A stretch of 64,000 bases of DNA from Nitrososphaerales archaeon (GTDB taxonomy: Archaea; Thermoproteota; Nitrososphaeria; Nitrososphaerales; CADDZS01): NCBI GenBank assembly GCA_030041295.1, contig JASHOD010000053.1, forward strand, positions 1-64,000, in the 5' to 3' direction. This document shows, in pieces, positions 25,229-32,859 of this stretch. Within the stretch, counting starts at the first letter, position 1. Each line of letters opens with the position of its first letter. A program made the position numbers and the translations under genes. The notes under the pieces were generated by a model. It was given only the letters and a program-made list of their open reading frames with translations, was not told the origin of the DNA and did not search any database.

Positions 25229-26386
25229 TCAGTTCCTCTTTCCTTTGGCTGATTTTCGAGAACGCCCAGGTCGTCGTCCTTTTTGTTGTAGCCTGGACCA
25301 GCTAGGAGTCTTGCTTTTTCGCGAGTCTTCTGGCCACATCATCGCCCGAAGTTTTCGACCCGCTTGTTCAATAGGGTGGTTTTCCAGCTCTCGCAAGTAT
25401 TTTTCAAATGCCTGAGATCCCTCGTTTTGGTACGCATTCATCCAATCTTGGGCAAATTCACCAGATTGAATCCTGTCGAGCGCTTTGCGCATTCGCTCTT
25501 TTGTCTCACCTGTCATAATAGATGGCCCGACAACCAACCCGCCATATCGTGCGGTTTCGCTCACTCCTCTGTACATTCCTCCGATTCCGTAGCGCTGAAT
25601 GAGATCTACGATCAGCTTCAATTCGTGGAGGCACTCGAAATACGCTATTTCAGGTTGATATCCTCTTTCAACAAGGACTTCGAAAGCGGTTCGAATCATC
25701 CTGTCAACTCCTCCGCACAGGTCGACTTGTTCTCCAAACCAGTCGCTTTCAACTTCTTCTTTGAACGTTGTTTTGATCAAACCCGCTCTTGCACTTCCAA
25801 TTCCCTTTGCTAGCTCGAGCGTTCTCTGCCAGGCACGACCCGTGGAATCTTGCTCAACCGCGATAAGCGACGGAGTCCCAAAGCCCGAAACGTAAACTTC
25901 CCTTACTCTCTGACCAGGAGCTTTCGGAGCAATCATGAAAACATCAACATCTGACGGTGGCTTGATCCAGCCCCAGTGAACTGCAGCTCCATGAGAAAAT
26001 CCGAGTGCCTTTCCCTTGGTCACATAAGGCTCGATTTGTTTGTAGACGGAGCTTTGAGCCATGTCAGGAACCAGCATGTGGATGATGCTCGCTGTCTTGG
26101 CAGCTTCCTCAACAGGCAAAACTTTGTGGCCATCCTTCTTAGCCAAGTTCCAAGACTGACCCCCTTTCCTTAATCCAACAACGACTTTGAAACCAGAATC
26201 ACTCAGATTGCTTGCTTGAGCTCTCCCTTGGAGGCCGTAGCCAATCACGGCTATGGTTTCGTTTTTCTTTACGGTCGTGCTCTTGATGTCTTTCTCATAG
26301 AGAGCCTTTGAATCTCCTAGAGTGGTTTCATTTTTTCCTTCCAATTGTTGTTGTTTCATCATATCTAATTCCCTCTTACCCGCCAA
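25229..26386 (-). CDS. ilvC: Ketol-acid reductoisomerase
   Basis: A class I KARI (385 residues) for Val and Ile synthesis. The NADPH Rossmann motif is IGYGLQGRAQASNL, with specificity loop GLRKGGQSWNLA. GFSHGAAVHWGWIKPP and APKAPGQRVREVY follow. The Mg ligands are in the DLCGGVDRMIRTAFE and FECLHELKLIVDLI helices. It has a 20-residue N-terminal lead and an unusual basic tail of about 30 residues after MMWPE (rich in Arg, Lys and Ser). Sits between ilvE (12 nt) and the LeuA-type regulatory domain gene (7 nt). Confidence 0.96.
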   Translation of the reverse strand: MAGKRELDMMKQQQLEGKNETTLGDSKALYEKDIKSTTVKKNETIAVIGYGLQGRAQASNLSDSGFKVVVGLRKGGQSWNLAKKDGHKVLPVEEAAKTASIIHMLVPDMAQSSVYKQIEPYVTKGKALGFSHGAAVHWGWIKPPSDVDVFMIAPKAPGQRVREVYVSGFGTPSLIAVEQDSTGRAWQRTLELAKGIGSARAGLIKTTFKEEVESDWFGEQVDLCGGVDRMIRTAFEVLVERGYQPEIAYFECLHELKLIVDLIQRYGIGGMYRGVSETARYGGLVVGPSIMTGETKERMRKALDRIQSGEFAQDWMNAYQNEGSQAFEKYLRELENHPIEQAGRKLRAMMWPEDSRKSKTPSWSRLQQKGRRPGRSRKSAKGKRN

Positions 26387-26398
26387 TCCATTCGTGTT

Positions 26399-27382
26399 CT
26401 AGTACACTCGCGTGACCCAGTCGTCGCGACCAAACGTCTCGCGCCCGACCACAAGATCAAAATAGGCTTTAGCTAGCTTTTCTGTAACGGCTCCGACTTT
26501 TCGGTTTCCAACTGGTTTCTTGTCAACGCTCAGAACTGGTGCAATGCCTGCGGCCGTTCCGGTCAAGAATATCTCGTCGGCAGTGTAAAGTTCGGATCTG
26601 CCTACTTCTCGCTCGATGATTTCCACGCCGAGCTTCTTTGAGAGGAAGATTATGGTATCTCTGGTCAATCCCTTGAGAATCGAGGAGCCAACCGATGGTG
26701 TTACTAATTCCTCATCTTTCACGACGAAAATGTTCTCACCTGTTGCTTCAGATACCTTGCCAGTTGCGTTGAGCATGATTGCCTCATCATATCCATTCTT
26801 TGCAGCCTCCCGTTTTGCAAAGACAGAGTTCACATAATTTCCACAAATCTTGGCCATAGGTGGCGTTACTGGATCATAGATTCGCGTCCAGCTAGAGACA
26901 CAAACATCCAAACCAGCTTTCGCGAAATACTGTTTGAAAGGAAAAGCTACGATCGCCGCATCAATTGGATAGTTGATAAAACCTAGGTTGATTCCTGAAA
27001 AACCCACGAAGACGATTGGTCGAATGTAGCAGTCTCCTCTGATTTTATTGGCTCTTAGAAGATCAACGCACGCATTTTCAAATTCTGTCGAAGTGTACTT
27101 GCATTCCAAATCACATATCCTTGCGGATTCAAGTAGTCGTTCAAAGTGCTCTCCAAGCCTGAACACGTACAGTTTATCTTCAGATCCATAACCTCGGATG
27201 CCTTCAAAGACCCCGGTTCCGTAATGAAGTGAATGAGTCATAACAGGGACAGTTGCGTTATCCCAGGCAACCAATTCGCCGTTCATCCATACAAAATCCA
27301 CTTTTTGGATTTCGGGTCTCGTTGCTTGTGTTGATTCTCTTCTTTGTTCCAGTTCTGTTTGCATTTTCTTTTTCTCACTCAT
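26399..27382 (-). CDS. ilvE: Branched-chain amino acid aminotransferase
   Basis: A fold-type IV PLP aminotransferase (327 residues) carrying out the last step to Val, Leu and Ile. Conserved blocks are THSLHYGTGVFEGIRGY, the PLP Lys region NYVNSVFAKREAAKNGYDEAIML, GKVSEATGENIFVVKD and EIFLTGTAAGIAPV. The first 30 residues are a charged lead not usual in the family. Same strand and close spacing to leuB (56 nt) and ilvC. Confidence 0.96.
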   Translation of the reverse strand: MSEKKKMQTELEQRRESTQATRPEIQKVDFVWMNGELVAWDNATVPVMTHSLHYGTGVFEGIRGYGSEDKLYVFRLGEHFERLLESARICDLECKYTSTEFENACVDLLRANKIRGDCYIRPIVFVGFSGINLGFINYPIDAAIVAFPFKQYFAKAGLDVCVSSWTRIYDPVTPPMAKICGNYVNSVFAKREAAKNGYDEAIMLNATGKVSEATGENIFVVKDEELVTPSVGSSILKGLTRDTIIFLSKKLGVEIIEREVGRSELYTADEIFLTGTAAGIAPVLSVDKKPVGNRKVGAVTEKLAKAYFDLVVGRETFGRDDWVTRVY

Positions 27383-27438: not shown

Positions 27439-28554
27439 TCAAATCTCGGGGAAGCGTAAGGGGCATTTTTTTGATACTTGACGAATTTCTTGGGAGACAG
27501 CCTCAGCGACTCGATTTGTGTTCGCATTACCTCCAATATCTGGTGTCTTTACACCAGAAGCAATAACAGAATGAATCGCTGCTTCCACAATTCGAGATGC
27601 TCTGTTAAAGTCAGAATTTCCTTTTGTCTTTGCGAGCCAATCTAGCATCATCTTGATCGAAAGGAACATCGCAATCGGATTTGCTATGCCCTTTCCTGCG
27701 ATATCAGGCGCAGCGCCGTGAACTGGTTCAAAGAGAGCAAAATGTTCGCCTATGTTTGCAGACGGAGCTAGTCCTAATCCACCAGCTATTTGCGATGCTT
27801 CGTCGGACAGTACATCTCCGTACATATTTGAAGTTACGATAACATCGAATGCCTCTGGATTCCTAACTAGATTCATCGCGGCCGAATCTACATACATATT
27901 CGAGAAATGAACAGAAGGATATTTCTTTGAAACACTCTCACAGCTTTTTACAAATAGTCCGTCGCTTTTTGGCAGGACGTTTGACTTTGAAACGCAGATT
28001 ACTGACGGGTCGGATTTCCTCTCGTTGTTGTGTTCTTTTTGCCTCGATAATGCTTGCTCGAATGCATATTTTGCAATTCGCAAACTTGCTCTCTTCGTAA
28101 CGACCTTTAGAGCAGTTGCCTTCTGACCGGACGCATCTATTGATTCTCTCCCCACGTAAAGATCTTCCGTGTTTTCTCGCACAATGACCAAGTCTACATT
28201 TGGAAATTTGGATTCGACGAAAGGAAGATTTTTCGCTGGACGTATGTTTGCATAAAGATCCAGCTCTTGCCTTATTTTGAGAATTGTATCTTTCGCTGTC
28301 TCTCCGACAGGGGCCTTCAGGCAAGCATCAGATTCTTTGATCACTTCTAAGGAGCTTTTTGGAAGAGCTTTTCCATTTCTTTTGAGTTCTCTATCTCCGG
28401 CTGGGGCGTTTACATAATGAAAATTGAGATCGAAAGTCTCTGAAATAGAATCGAGCACAACTCTAGCCGCTTCGAAGAGTTCTGGTCCTATACCATCTCC
28501 CTCAATGCATGATAGTACTACAAAAGATTCGCTTCTCAAATTAAACCACCTCAT
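27439..28554 (-). CDS. leuB: 3-isopropylmalate dehydrogenase
   Basis: A 371-residue beta-decarboxylating dehydrogenase. It opens IEGDGIGPELFEAAR, has RPAKNLPFVES, VIVRENTEDLYVGRE, the metal-binding TSNMYGDVLSDEASQIAGGLG and the NAD-site FEPVHGAAPDIAGKGIANP. In this family isopropylmalate, isocitrate and homoisocitrate enzymes are hard to separate by eye; the location between leuA and ilvE makes isopropylmalate (and possibly methylmalate for Ile) the likely substrate. Starts 7 nt after the leuA stop. Confidence 0.93.
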   Translation of the reverse strand: MRWFNLRSESFVVLSCIEGDGIGPELFEAARVVLDSISETFDLNFHYVNAPAGDRELKRNGKALPKSSLEVIKESDACLKAPVGETAKDTILKIRQELDLYANIRPAKNLPFVESKFPNVDLVIVRENTEDLYVGRESIDASGQKATALKVVTKRASLRIAKYAFEQALSRQKEHNNERKSDPSVICVSKSNVLPKSDGLFVKSCESVSKKYPSVHFSNMYVDSAAMNLVRNPEAFDVIVTSNMYGDVLSDEASQIAGGLGLAPSANIGEHFALFEPVHGAAPDIAGKGIANPIAMFLSIKMMLDWLAKTKGNSDFNRASRIVEAAIHSVIASGVKTPDIGGNANTNRVAEAVSQEIRQVSKKCPLRFPEI

Positions 28555-28561
28555 GTTCCAT

Positions 28562-30136
28562 TTAGGATGTCATCGCTGCAATTGTCTGGGCAGGACGAAC
28601 GATTTCTTGGTTGCCATCCTGCCTAGATCTGCGGAGCATTGTTTCGTTGATACCGCTCATCATAGCATAAACACTTGCCATCACGATATCCTGTCCTGCC
28701 GCTGAAGCAGAGCATACGTTCCCTCTGTCGTCTTCAACTTTCACGAGTACTTCGGCTTCTGCATCAGTACCTCCGCTCACGGCCTCGATTCTGTATTCGC
28801 GTAGCGTCACCTTTGCATAACGATCGGTAACCTGAGAAATTGCTTTTAGTACAGCATCAACAGGTCCAACGCCTGTCTGGGCGGTAGTGGTTGAATCATT
28901 GTTTCCAAATGCGAGCCTTACAGAAGCAGTTGGAACAGTGTTAATTCCAGTAATGATCGCAAGATCAGTTATCTTGAAATAAGAATCTCGTTTTGCTAAA
29001 CCACTTATCTCGCGTGCCAACCGGTCTAAGTCGCTATCTGTCACTGGTTTGCCTTGATCTCCAATCTCTTTCACTTTCTGAACGACTTTCTTCAGTTCAT
29101 CGGAGGTGAGATTGAAGCCAAGAGATTTCAATTGTGAGTAAACCCCGTGTGTTCCAGCGTGTTTACCTGCTTGGATCCGTCTAGAAGCACCAACGAGCTC
29201 TGGCTCCATGGGTTCATAGGTGGCTGGCATATTCAAGACGCCATGCGTGTGAATTCCTGATTCGTGGCCAAATGCATTTTCACCAACTATGGCTTTGTTT
29301 GGTTGCAAAAGCACACGGGTCAATTTGGAAACTGTTCGCGAGGTTTCGTAGAGCAACTTTGTTTTGATCCGGCACTCGATACTGTACAATCTAGAAGCTG
29401 CCATTACGAATTCTTCGAGCGACGCATTCCCCGCTCTTTCGCCCAGTCCGTTAATAGTTACATGCGCCTGATCTGCGCCGGCATTCACTCCAGCTAGGCT
29501 GTTCGCAACGGCGAGTCCATAATCATCGTGGCAATGAACACTTATGGGAATTCGTATTTGCGATTTCAAGTACCTAATTAGTTCGGCAAATCTCTCTGGA
29601 GTGCTAGTGCCGACGGTATCAGGAACATTGATTCGTTCCGCCCCGACTCGCTCCGCTTCGCGAAACGCCTTTACAAGAAAATCTCTCTCTGTCCTAGTAG
29701 CATCTTCTGCAGAAAATTCGACCTTTATTCCGTGAGCTTTCGCATATTCTATACCGGCGATTTCGGATTCAAGGGCCTTTTCTCTTGAAATTTTGAGCTT
29801 GTACTGCAGGTGCAAGTCGGAAGTTGCTATGAAGAGGTGACCATAGCTAATGTCACAATCGATCAGTTTGTCAATGTCTGCCTTGTCAACCCTTGAGAGA
29901 GCAGTGATCTGTGAGGATAACCCAAGTTTGTTAATTCTTTTGACCGCATCATATTCCCCCTCGGAAACTACAGGGAACCCGGCTTCTATGACATCGACGC
30001 CCAGCCGATCAAGGGACTTTGCTATCTCCACCTTGTTATCAGCTGTAAGCGATACTCCCGGAGTCTGCTCACCGTCACGAAGTGTTGTGTCGAAAATGCG
30101 TACTTTACTTACGGATTGATACGGAGAGTAATCCAT
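28562..30136 (-). CDS. leuA: 2-isopropylmalate synthase (or citramalate synthase)
   Basis: A full-length 524-residue alpha-isopropylmalate/homocitrate-family enzyme. The catalytic TIM barrel starts FDTTLRDGEQTPGVSL, with HCHDDYGLAVANSLAG (metal His) and NGLGERAGNASLEEFV. A linker (HESGIHTHGVLNMPATYEP) and a C-terminal LeuA_dimer allosteric domain (ATVSVRL-like, VGPVDAVLKAIS) follow. Acetyl-CoA is condensed with 2-oxoisovalerate (Leu) or pyruvate (Ile via citramalate); the two cannot be told apart by eye. The start overlaps the ilvN stop by one base. The separate regulatory-domain gene downstream may act on it. Confidence 0.93.
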   Translation of the reverse strand: MDYSPYQSVSKVRIFDTTLRDGEQTPGVSLTADNKVEIAKSLDRLGVDVIEAGFPVVSEGEYDAVKRINKLGLSSQITALSRVDKADIDKLIDCDISYGHLFIATSDLHLQYKLKISREKALESEIAGIEYAKAHGIKVEFSAEDATRTERDFLVKAFREAERVGAERINVPDTVGTSTPERFAELIRYLKSQIRIPISVHCHDDYGLAVANSLAGVNAGADQAHVTINGLGERAGNASLEEFVMAASRLYSIECRIKTKLLYETSRTVSKLTRVLLQPNKAIVGENAFGHESGIHTHGVLNMPATYEPMEPELVGASRRIQAGKHAGTHGVYSQLKSLGFNLTSDELKKVVQKVKEIGDQGKPVTDSDLDRLAREISGLAKRDSYFKITDLAIITGINTVPTASVRLAFGNNDSTTTAQTGVGPVDAVLKAISQVTDRYAKVTLREYRIEAVSGGTDAEAEVLVKVEDDRGNVCSASAAGQDIVMASVYAMMSGINETMLRRSRQDGNQEIVRPAQTIAAMTS

Positions 30137-30750
30137 CAGTCATCTCTCCTTAAAGCAGTTAGACCCGTACGGACTACTTCCTTCACCACGCCTGACTTTG
30201 AAGCCTCTTCGATGAAGGAATCAATTCCCTCCGGCGTCGAGCAGAATTCTACAACTAGTGAGTCATGGGTGGAATCAACGGCCTTAGCCCCGAGAGCGTT
30301 AGACAAGTCAAGTATTTCGCGTCTAGCCTCTGATGAGTTGGTCTCGAACTTCACCAGAGCAAGTTCTCTTACTATGGAATCTTGTCTCGTCATCATGCCG
30401 ACTTCGATTACGTCAATCATTTTTCGGAGCTGTTTTACCAAAAGTACTAGAGAGGTATCGTCTCCAGAGGGCACAATTGTCATACGAGCCAGTTCAGAAT
30501 GCGAAGTTCTCCCTATCGCGATGCTTGTAATGTTGAATCCCTTTGCTCTGAACATACTAGAAACTCTGTGTAATACGCCTCGCTGGTTTTCGACTATAGC
30601 ATAGACAATCGCGTGCGAGTGTTTCTGCCTAGTTTTTTGCAGTACCTCGTCGCTCCTTGATTTGGAAGCTTCTAGAATCGGTTTAGCGGTAGAAAGAGGA
30701 CTCTGCGGAGTTGAGGACGACGTTGGAGAAGAAGGTGAAGAGGCGCTCAT
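30136..30750 (-). CDS. ilvN: Acetolactate synthase regulatory subunit
   Basis: A 204-residue small subunit. The N-terminal ACT domain begins after a low-complexity Ser/Pro lead of about 20 residues: AIVYAIVENQRGVLHRVSSMF, FNITSIAIGRTSHSELARMT. The second ACT-like domain is residues about 125-190 (REILDLSNALGAKAVDST). It binds valine in relatives and confers feedback control on IlvB. Start overlaps the ilvB stop by 4 nt, so translation is coupled. Confidence 0.94.
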   Translation of the reverse strand: MSASSPSSPTSSSTPQSPLSTAKPILEASKSRSDEVLQKTRQKHSHAIVYAIVENQRGVLHRVSSMFRAKGFNITSIAIGRTSHSELARMTIVPSGDDTSLVLLVKQLRKMIDVIEVGMMTRQDSIVRELALVKFETNSSEARREILDLSNALGAKAVDSTHDSLVVEFCSTPEGIDSFIEEASKSGVVKEVVRTGLTALRRDD

Positions 30751-32429
30751 GCTACGACCATATCCTTCAAAGCGGTTCCTGGAACGACGAAGGGAAATAC
30801 ATCTTCTTCAGGAGAAATTGGAACGTCGATAACTGTGGCGACATCACTCTTGAGTCCGAGTTTTACGGCTTTGGAGAATTCTTCTAAAGATTGAGCACGT
30901 AGTCCTTGAGCTCTGTAGGCTTCCGCGAGCTTGACATAATCTGGTAAGCTGTAGAGCTTGACGCCATTATATCGACGTCCGTAGAATAACCTCTGCCATT
31001 GAGCGACCATCCCGAGCATTCCGTTGTTAATCACAACTACAATCACTGGGATGTTATCTAGAACGGATGTTGCTAGGGCCGCTTCTGTCATGTTAAAACT
31101 GCCATCGCCAGCAATGTCTAGGACGGGACGATCTGGACTTGCAACCTTGGCTCCAATTGCCGCCGGAAAACCAAATCCCATCGTTCCCAGTCCTGTTGAA
31201 CTGTAGAACGTTCCAGGCTCTATAACATCGAAATGAAGCGAAGCCCACATCTGACACTGCCCAACTTCGGTCGTCACGATTGCCTGTGAGGGAAGAGAAT
31301 CTCTGAGCGTTTTGAGAAGGCTTATCGCACTGACCTTTGTCATGTCTACAGAAAATTCACTCTTGCAATGATCCTTGACCTCCGTGAAACGATCCTGCCA
31401 CTTTTTCAGTTCATTTCGTCTAGCTCTTCGTTTGAGTGAATGTATCATCATTTGAAGTGACGCTCTAACATCTCCAACGATTCCGAGATCGACTTCTTTG
31501 TTTTTGTTGATCTCGGAAGGATCAATGTCTATGTGAATCACTTTGGATTCTTTGACAAACTCAGAAACCTTGCCGGTTGATCTGTCTGAAAATCTCGTCC
31601 CGATTGCGATCAAAACATCAGCTTCAAGAGTCAGCCTGTTTGCCTCGATGTGGCCATGCATTCCTATTGGTCCGAGTGCCAGCGGATGAGTCTCGCTGAA
31701 CACGCCCTTTCCCTTGAATGTCGTCGCGACTGGTATCATCAGCATCTCTGCAAGGGCTTGCAGTTCACTGAACGCTCCAGAAATTGCGACTCCTCCTCCG
31801 GCTAGTATCATCGGCCTTTCTGCCGAAAGGATCATGTCAAGGGCTCGTTCTACCTCTGGACCGCTAGGCTCGCCAGGCGGGTCATAACCTCGTACCCTGA
31901 TGGCGTTTGGAAATTCTGTTTCAGCTTCATTGGTTTGGACGTCTTTTGGAATGTCGATTAAAACTGGGCCCGGTCTACCAGAAGAAGCAATGAAGAAAGC
32001 CTTCTTTACAGCGTGAGGGATTTCGTTTGGCTTTAGAAGCTGGAAAGTATACTTCGTAACCGGCGTGGCGACCCCGACTATATCACATTCTTGAAATGCA
32101 TCGCGCCCTATGCTTGAGGTCGCTACCTGACCCGTAATTGCGATCATAGGAATAGAGTCCATGTAAGCGGTCGCAATTCCTGTTACTAGGTTTGTAGCTC
32201 CAGGACCGGACGTAGCTAGACAGACTCCGGGCTTTCTTGAAACTCGTGCAAAGCCATCCGCCATGTGGGCTGCGAGTTGCTCGTGCCTAACTAAGATGTG
32301 TCTTATACTCGAACTTCCCAGTTCATCATAGATTGGAAGGTTCGCCCCTCCAGGCATACCAAAGATAACCTTCGTGCCTTCGTTTTCCAGCTGTTTGATG
32401 AGAGATTTTGATCCAGATAGCTTTACCAA
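30747..32429 (-). CDS. ilvB: Acetolactate synthase catalytic subunit
   Basis: A ThDP-dependent AHAS large subunit of about 560 residues. It shows VIFGMPGGANLPIYDEL, the catalytic Glu region LVRHEQLAAHMADG, TSGPGATNLVTGIA, and the ThDP motif DIAGDGSFNMTEAALAT ending INNGMLGM. The longest frame starts at a TTG at 32453, but that overlaps the flank of a hairpin; TTG at 32429 (MVKLSGSKSL) fits homologues better. First enzyme of the long ilv-leu-phe-thr run, preceded by a hairpin and a 35-codon leader ORF. Confidence 0.95.
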   Translation of the reverse strand: MVKLSGSKSLIKQLENEGTKVIFGMPGGANLPIYDELGSSSIRHILVRHEQLAAHMADGFARVSRKPGVCLATSGPGATNLVTGIATAYMDSIPMIAITGQVATSSIGRDAFQECDIVGVATPVTKYTFQLLKPNEIPHAVKKAFFIASSGRPGPVLIDIPKDVQTNEAETEFPNAIRVRGYDPPGEPSGPEVERALDMILSAERPMILAGGGVAISGAFSELQALAEMLMIPVATTFKGKGVFSETHPLALGPIGMHGHIEANRLTLEADVLIAIGTRFSDRSTGKVSEFVKESKVIHIDIDPSEINKNKEVDLGIVGDVRASLQMMIHSLKRRARRNELKKWQDRFTEVKDHCKSEFSVDMTKVSAISLLKTLRDSLPSQAIVTTEVGQCQMWASLHFDVIEPGTFYSSTGLGTMGFGFPAAIGAKVASPDRPVLDIAGDGSFNMTEAALATSVLDNIPVIVVVINNGMLGMVAQWQRLFYGRRYNGVKLYSLPDYVKLAEAYRAQGLRAQSLEEFSKAVKLGLKSDVATVIDVPISPEEDVFPFVVPGTALKDMVVA

Positions 32430-32460
32430 TATAACTTGACAACTCCAATACAATTTTTCC

Positions 32461-32490
32461 CCAGCGAATTTCTTCTTAGAAGAACGCTGG
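32461..32490 (-). promoter_or_regulatory. Hairpin between leader ORF and ilvB
   Basis: On the minus strand CCAGCG pairs with CGCTGG and, inside it, TTCTTC with GAAGAA, closed by a TAA loop, with ATT bulged on one side: 12 base pairs in 30 nt. It begins two bases after the stop of the 35-codon ORF and ends 8 nt before the first possible ilvB start. No U-tract follows on the minus strand, so it is not a classic terminator; it could block the ilvB start or respond to ribosome position. Confidence 0.65.
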
Positions 32491-32492
32491 GT

Positions 32493-32600
32493 CTAGGCGA
32501 TAATAATGACAAGCAAGCTAAGGACTACAAGGGACACTCCCAAGTACAGAGAACCTCCCTTGAATGAGGACAAAATAGATGCAGATTGCTTGTCTGACAT
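32493..32600 (-). CDS. 35-codon ORF rich in Ile/Leu/Val codons upstream of ilvB
   Basis: ATG at 32600 to TAG at 32495-32493. The peptide starts MSDKQSASIL and ends LVVLSLLVIIIA; 15 of 35 residues are branched-chain, and the last sense codons are Val-Ile-Ile-Ile-Ala, immediately before the stop and hairpin. A TATA-like element (CTTAAATA, minus strand) lies about 31 nt upstream, so the transcript would start only a few nt before this ATG. Two readings fit: an attenuation-type leader peptide for the branched-chain operon, or a tiny single-helix membrane protein (hydrophobic residues about 18-35). Position favours the first, composition allows both. Confidence 0.55.
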   Translation of the reverse strand: MSDKQSASILSSFKGGSLYLGVSLVVLSLLVIIIA

Positions 32601-32619
32601 CGCTTCCACGCATACCCGA

Positions 32620-32646
32620 CTCTCACTTATTTAAGAATAGTGAGAG
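32620..32646. promoter_or_regulatory. Inverted repeat bracketing the TATA element of the ilvB run
   Basis: CTCTCACT (32620-32627) and AGTGAGAG (32639-32646) form a perfect 8-bp inverted repeat separated by 11 bp. The 11-bp spacer holds most of the TATA-like CTTAAATAA (minus strand, 32635-32627). A dimeric regulator bound here would cover the promoter, as expected for repression of the branched-chain run (for example by an Lrp-type protein). The divergent aminotransferase begins about 215 bp away. Confidence 0.55.
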
Positions 32647-32859
32647 GTTCTGTTTATTTTTAAGAAGGTACTTAGAGCAAGACAAAGACTGCATTTTTTT
32701 CGGTGATTAGACTATTGTCAATTACTAGGAGCTGGAATTTCAGATATATTCGTGTCATATGCGACAACTGCAAATCTACTAATAATCATAAAATAAGCGT
32801 AGGAAAAATGTCGTGTGACAAACAAAGTGCAAAGAAATCAGAGATTTATTGCAGAAAGA

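Follow-up and report, generated by a model that had tools for sequence, protein, structure and literature searches.

A probable Leu/Val/Ile-sensing leader ahead of the ilvB operon in Nitrososphaerales archaea

A 64,000-nucleotide stretch of DNA from a Nitrososphaerales archaeon (assembly GCA_030041295.1, contig JASHOD010000053.1, positions 1 to 64,000; here called the window) carries a short open reading frame (ORF), rich in leucine, valine and isoleucine codons, ahead of ilvB, the gene for the large subunit of acetolactate synthase (ALS). A first-pass annotation of this DNA had read the ORF as a possible attenuation-like leader, and that reading is supported by its conserved position and frame, its codon bias and part of its predicted base pairing. 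On these comparisons of sequence, the ORF is probably the Leu/Val/Ile-sensing leader of a ribosome-mediated attenuator for branched-chain amino acid synthesis, and it is best read as a leader peptide that acts in cis and has no function as a protein. In bacteria, ribosome-mediated attenuation is a textbook mechanism; to our knowledge it is not an established one in archaea.

Leader ORF and promoter

The features of the leader region are as follows.

32629–32634, minus strand: TTAAAT, a TATA-like box seen in the sequence and picked by the amino-acid-blind rule described below; putative promoter element
32493–32600, minus strand: leader ORF of 35 codons and the stop codon TAG, with 15 Ile/Leu/Val codons and the C-terminus Val-Ile-Ile-Ile-Ala
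32598–32603, minus strand: S1a, GCGAUG, which includes the start codon of the leader; a duplex with 32502–32497 is predicted, and none of 100 shuffles did as well
32588–32594, minus strand: S1b, GACAAGC; predicted to pair with 32514–32508, supported by an alignment fold of seven sequences
32508–32514, minus strand: S2a, GCUUGUC, within the Leu/Val/Ile codon cluster
32497–32502, minus strand: S2b, UAUCGC, the last Ile-Ala codons ahead of the stop
32460–32491, minus strand: post-stop hairpin with lower stem CCCAGCG:CGCUGGG, a 3-nt bulge and an upper stem; all seven family members have one at this position

The ORF runs from an ATG at 32600 to a TAG at 32495–32493 and encodes the peptide MSDKQSASILSSFKGGSLYLGVSLVVLSLLVIIIA; with 7 Leu, 4 Val and 4 Ile, its 35 codons include the 15 branched-chain ones that the first-pass annotation had counted. 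The TTAAAT box is 34 nt upstream of the leader ATG; from this spacing, the transcript on which the ORF is translated is probably leaderless or nearly so. A Pfam search with the peptide gave no match. In Rfam, positions 32380–32760 of the window gave no match at E < 1 (three chance rows had E values of 4–5.4), and nothing reached gathering scores for 11 loci.

Equivalents of the leader were found upstream of ilvB in six other genomes of the window's family (f1). The frame is open in all seven members despite insertions and deletions, and the segments MPGKQSG and LSLPxxVA are kept in three or more of them. When nine genomes of the family were searched with the leader DNA, confident matches were found only beside ilvB, and the rows elsewhere (E 0.2–0.8) were chance matches of 16–28 bases. 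Homologues away from ilvB, which the first-pass annotation had held would tell against a leader, were not seen in these nine genomes.

Survey of ilvB upstream regions

Orthologues of ilvB were found in 155 of the 201 genomes of the window's order. Among the orthologue matches listed, 151 upstream regions were taken: 7 from the window's family, then 24 and 120 further ones. Short ORFs were picked from these by a rule blind to amino acids, which takes the ATG lying 26–42 nt below a TATA-like box, and nearest to 34 nt, that opens a frame of 8–45 codons; 40 dinucleotide shuffles of the 151 regions served as the control. The rule found an ORF in 128 of the 151 regions, against a mean of 29.6 in the shuffles.

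Ile, Leu and Val accounted for 0.589 of the last ten codons of these ORFs, compared with 0.257 (sd 0.025) in the shuffles, and for 21.5% of the earlier part of the peptide. Of the 128 leaders, 81 had 60% or more Ile/Leu/Val among their last ten codons, as did 21 of the 1185 ORFs picked from shuffles. Reading the same DNA in the other two frames gave 0.233 and 0.244. In 14 of the 16 families the mean was 0.50 or higher. Overall the leaders contain 33% Leu, 18.5% Val and 7% Ile, with little Phe, Ala, Met, Gly or Trp.

Outside the codon cluster the peptide drifts beyond recognition between families and no residue-specific motif is common to them, Leu, Val and Ile interchanging freely. Examples are MVEIDSTSISSILLLVELVL and MSTKLTGTFDKKLSVVFLL from f9 (which we take to be Nitrosopumilaceae), MPHTGSERSRHKVKILVLLLLA from f8 (presumably Nitrososphaeraceae), MQGDNASANTVIRQLALTLLV from f10, MEDVEIDYKYQGSVLSLEVLLKVVLLSSVVLQ from f13 and MKVVSGCLPNSRLGLTVFVGLTPLVLVVV from f14. 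In most regions the leader stop is about 26–78 nt from the ilvB match. The expectation of the first-pass annotation that a leader would keep its Ile/Leu/Val codons while its peptide drifted was borne out throughout the survey.

The same rule found no ORF with at least 60% Ile/Leu/Val before hisG (0 of 30 regions), ilvC (0 of 30) or ALS paralogues (0 of 21). Upstream regions of hisG and ilvC were also inspected for leaders of their own, and none was seen. Of the 23 ilvB regions missed by the rule, one (L178) was too short and 22 were read by eye, from which four further leaders were accepted where the TATA criterion had missed them (L004, L106, L133 and L177). A leader was found in Candidatus Nitrosotalea devanaterra (G086, LN890280), so the set includes ammonia-oxidizing Thaumarchaeota.

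Beyond the order, 18 regions came from other orders of the same class, and 11 of them have a leader (six by the blind rule and five more by a scan allowing any start codon); all seven regions lacking one belong to a single family, f22. Other classes of the phylum contributed 40 regions, and the blind rule gave an ORF in 10 of these, none with 60% Ile/Leu/Val; the any-start scan of these 40 gave seven ORFs in six loci. Two of the 40 regions, L396 and L427 (both f41), carry ORFs with a TTG start that end in ...NVVILK and ...IVVILK, about 62 nt upstream of ilvB. These two are similar to each other and may be real leaders outside the class.

RNA structure

The first-pass annotation had placed a 12-bp hairpin two bases after the leader stop. 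The hairpin is there: 13 pairs are predicted, its 3' side has a 3-nt bulge, and it begins one base past the stop, not two. Taken alone it is only mildly better than its shuffles (z −1.6; 8 of 200 shuffles were equally stable). A hairpin in that position is present in all seven family genomes in which this ilvB was found, with a z of −3.6 for f1 and p ≤ 0.05 in six of the seven; in the alignment fold of the seven sequences the lower stem is kept, with one two-sided change. Post-stop hairpins are also strong in f3, f6 and other families.

A second predicted pairing joins the start of the ORF to its control codons. In f1, GACAAGC or GGCAAGC near the start is complementary to GCUUGUC or GCUUGCC inside the Leu/Val/Ile cluster, and two-sided changes are seen at 2 of 8 pairs of this S1:S2 stem; in the alignment fold the register of S1b lies four bases upstream, within the window's repeat GCTTGCTTGTC. 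The start-codon region GCGAUG of the window can in addition pair with UAUCGC of the last Ile-Ala codons. No shuffle out of 100 gave an S1 pairing as good as that of the window leader.

For structure tests across the survey, 111 of 132 leaders were used, 15 having been dropped for less than 40% Ile/Leu/Val, three as repeated peptides and three for being short of sequence. The partner arm was sought only from 33 nt before the stop to 15 nt after it. For 34 of the 111 leaders, against about 5.5 expected, the best S1 pairing was better than in 100 shuffles at p ≤ 0.05; the 3' arm lay within the ORF or across the stop in 33 of them.

The clearest case is a group of 22 Nitrosopumilus-type leaders, in which the start region AUGAGCACA, with variants such as AUGUGUGUG, pairs with bases right past the stop. 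In this stem 82.9% of cells are paired, against 21–57% in slid registers, and 6 of 8 pairs have two-sided changes, amounting to 17 two-sided cells with a covariation score of 0.355. Paired cells, two-sided cells and covariation score were each reached by 0 of 500 shuffles. The covarying hairpin anticipated in the first-pass annotation was found in part, in this start-region stem and in the f1 stems. Apparently mutually exclusive stems could be made out by eye in f13 and in some of the f8 leaders. With the control codons, or the bases past the stop, forming one arm of a stem and the start of the ORF the other, the arrangement suggests the logic of attenuation.

Observations against an attenuator

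Several results weigh against this reading. Two families, f2 and f14, have weak Ile/Leu/Val averages (0.42 and 0.41), and several f8 loci of genus g36 (L072, L086, L088, L094, L099 and L104) are without a leader. In the Nitrosopumilus-type stem, six pairs with two-sided changes were reached in 38 of 500 shuffles, and its 11 further pair types in 357 of 500. The S1 pairing was not significant in 77 of the 111 leaders, and the post-stop hairpin was not significant in f8 and f9 as wholes. The placement of S2 varies, from within the cluster (f1, f13) to past the stop (Nitrosopumilus-type), and no single scheme for when each stem forms could be drawn up for all families.

The tests of the output step belong with these results. 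Runs of at least five T between the leader stop and ilvB occur in only 16 of 114 leaders and not in that of the window, so termination at a U-tract was not supported as a general output. Pairing of the leader end with the Shine-Dalgarno region of ilvB was no better than in shuffles (111 leaders, mean z 0.09, four at z ≤ −1.64), and general sequestration of that site was likewise not supported. Its modelled accessibility barely shifts, being 0.42 with the RNA free, 0.44 with a stalled ribosome and 0.47 with a terminating one (n = 85).

There is a hint of anti-Shine-Dalgarno pairing in f13 (mean z −1.09), where the Ser-Ser codons within the cluster read GUCCUCC, complementary to GGAGGAC at the leader start or to AGGAGGA before ilvB. 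Locus L198 (f24, from another order) has a post-stop hairpin followed by six T and is the sole terminator-like case among the loci of other orders and classes. The g36 loci without a leader have a TATA-like box directly before ilvB, as if the leader had been lost and ilvB had become leaderless.

Alternative explanations

The alternative that survives best, itself unlikely, is constitutive translational delivery, in which the leader would load ribosomes near ilvB or keep transcription and translation coupled without any sensing. The ORF is always short, leaderless-like and close to ilvB, and in three f18 loci (L194, L195 and L201) its stop overlaps the Shine-Dalgarno-like site of ilvB, all of which would suit delivery. 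The distance of about 26–78 nt between stop and ilvB match in most regions does not, as coupling is slight or absent in the reviewed cases where the spacing exceeds 30 nt (excerpts of PMC12548453). Nor would delivery need Leu, Val or Ile codons, the share of which was 0.589 against 0.23–0.26 in the controls.

TnaC is a nascent-chain arrest peptide that senses a free amino acid, and a leader working in that manner, rather than by tRNA charging, is a distinctly improbable explanation. It would account for the conserved position of the hydrophobic end beside the stop, and for the MPGKQSG and LSLPxxVA segments kept in three or more f1 members. Those conserved ends are, however, also paired RNA arms, and an arrest motif shared by the families is missing, Leu, Val and Ile being swapped for one another.

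Slightly less probable again is that the region works as a structured RNA without being translated, its open frame arising as a by-product of the stems. The supported stems and the hairpin do overlap the ORF, but the Ile/Leu/Val bias is confined to one frame (0.588 against 0.233 and 0.244), the f1 frame stays open in 7 of 7 members through their indels, and Rfam has no matching family.

A small membrane protein made with the operon, the alternative raised in the first-pass annotation, is the least likely explanation of all: the C-terminal half of the window peptide is hydrophobic and of transmembrane (TM) length, so that this peptide alone could pass, and 29 of the 107 leaders of at least 19 residues have a TM-like window, but only those 29 do and 21 of the 128 leaders are under 19 residues, so the proposal does not explain the leader set. 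Many leaders are broken by charged residues (as in MVEIDSTSISSILLLVELVL); Ile, Leu and Val form 85% of their hydrophobic residues, where TM-like segments taken from ORFs of the window have 65%, and Phe, Ala, Met and Gly are depleted relative to such segments; and the lack of a Pfam match or of family copies away from ilvB, like the drift of the sequence, also speaks against a functional protein.

Proposed mechanism

The attenuator reading would work as follows. RNA polymerase would begin just above the leader ATG and a ribosome would load at once on the leaderless 5' end, to encounter the Leu/Val/Ile codon cluster directly before the stop. With charged tRNAs in ample supply, the ribosome would reach the stop and depart, and the S1:S2 pairing and the post-stop hairpin could form. 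If Leu, Val or Ile were scarce, the ribosome would halt on the cluster and cover S2 and, near the stop, also the foot of the hairpin. Covering S2 would favour an alternative RNA fold and with it more expression of the operon. The output might be translation of ilvB or continuation of the transcript through a factor such as FttA (a speculative role), not a U-tract terminator. In this scheme the stall, the way in which expression responds and the output step are all inferred.

Comparison with known systems

By analogy, the leader may work like a bacterial attenuator without its terminator. The ilvGMEDA and ilvBN attenuators of E. coli consist of a Leu/Val/Ile-rich leader, a hairpin and the operon, a layout common to the archaeal case; they differ in being bacterial, Shine-Dalgarno-led and equipped with an intrinsic terminator, and no sequence relation would be expected. 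An archaeal leader peptide for amino acid operons was not found in the literature searched, which comprised openly licensed papers only.

The nearest described case is the ilvBNC attenuator of Corynebacterium glutamicum, with the leader MTIIRLVVVTARRLP and a proven transcription terminator (excerpts of PMC11857589). Both systems have a short Ile/Val/Leu-rich leader ORF before ilvB, alternative hairpins and an operon of the same pathway. In contrast to the bacterial leader, as described in those excerpts, the archaeal one lacks a general U-tract terminator, is leaderless-like and has its control codons adjoining the stop. In the translational attenuator of ermC, a ribosome stalled on the leader ermCL refolds the mRNA near the start of the next gene, the signal being a drug (excerpts of PMC10219788). 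The f13 leaders resemble it in having an anti-Shine-Dalgarno-like arm, whereas such pairing is not general in the archaeal leaders. The same excerpts include archaea among the organisms in which upstream ORFs regulate genes, and contain no ilv case.

The ilvB operon

The gene order behind the leader in the window is ilvB-ilvN-leuA-leuB-ilvE-ilvC, with the following features.

32443–32446, minus strand: GGAG, a Shine-Dalgarno-like element 13 nt before the ilvB start; putative role
30747–32429, minus strand: ilvB, ALS large subunit (TIGR00118, E 2.4e-212); most likely start TTG at 32429
30136–30750, minus strand: ilvN, ALS small subunit (TIGR00119, E 2.3e-40)
28562–30136, minus strand: leuA-like, 2-isopropylmalate synthase (NF002085, E 1.5e-198)
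27439–28554, minus strand: leuB-like, isopropylmalate/isohomocitrate dehydrogenase (TIGR02088, E 2.4e-117, under the family cut-off)
26399–27382, minus strand: ilvE, branched-chain aminotransferase (NF005146, E 1.7e-114)
25781–26266, minus strand: ilvC, ketol-acid reductoisomerase (KARI) N-terminal domain (PF07991, E 5.2e-65); extent of the domain match, not of the whole gene

The window's genome, the stated contamination of which is 6.88%, has eight further ALS-like matches besides ilvB; two of these are on one contig and may be halves of one gene.

A candidate frameshift in trpE

A second candidate for control through the ribosome was seen at trpE of the same order (loci L294–L321 and L382–L393; no match was found in the window's own genome). 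In 36 of 42 loci a start codon is followed by GG and, further on, by NTT-TGG, from which the trpE frame continues in +1 as TTT-GGN. The site lies about 45–90 nt before the Pfam match, and the peptides begin like MGDRFW, MGGHLW or LGDYLW, or MSDLLW in two f17 loci. In eight of the 36 loci (f1, f6, f13 and f14) the trpE frame contains no ATG, GTG or TTG from the preceding stop codon to the conserved domain. Most of the others have a single in-frame start, the GTG within a GGGTG element, and there an ordinary GTG start is possible. From the sequences, these archaea seem to require a +1 shift of the ribosome at a Trp codon to express trpE, and such a shift at UGG would allow TrpE to be made when charged Trp-tRNA was scarce.

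The bacterial RF2 gene, prfB, has a programmed +1 frameshift with a Shine-Dalgarno-like element, then NUU and a sensed UGA. The trpE site is similar in having a Shine-Dalgarno-like GGGUG[AG], a few bases and NUU before the sensed codon, and differs in that this codon is UGG (Trp) in place of UGA, the gene is trpE and the organisms are archaeal. No paper on a trpE frameshift was found in the literature searched. The covered parts of a large review of frameshifting mention archaeal cases and not trpE (PMC5009743).

Upstream of trpE (in L294, L298, L300 and L312, for example) there are TGTACA-type sequences above a TATA-like box. These are, we presume, candidates for a TrpY-like operator.

Implications

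The chances are roughly even that ribosome-mediated attenuation is ancient and class-wide in these archaea, built on leaderless ORFs, with the start pairing to the control codons or to bases past the stop and with no terminator, and that, with the trpE frameshift, it forms part of a general habit of ribosome-based amino acid sensing. If both leader attenuation and the frameshift are real, these archaea would generally sense amino acids through the translating ribosome. As the leader is present in ammonia-oxidizing archaea that we take to be cultivated, such as Nitrosotalea devanaterra, control of archaeal biosynthesis through what the ribosome reads would become testable in living cultures.
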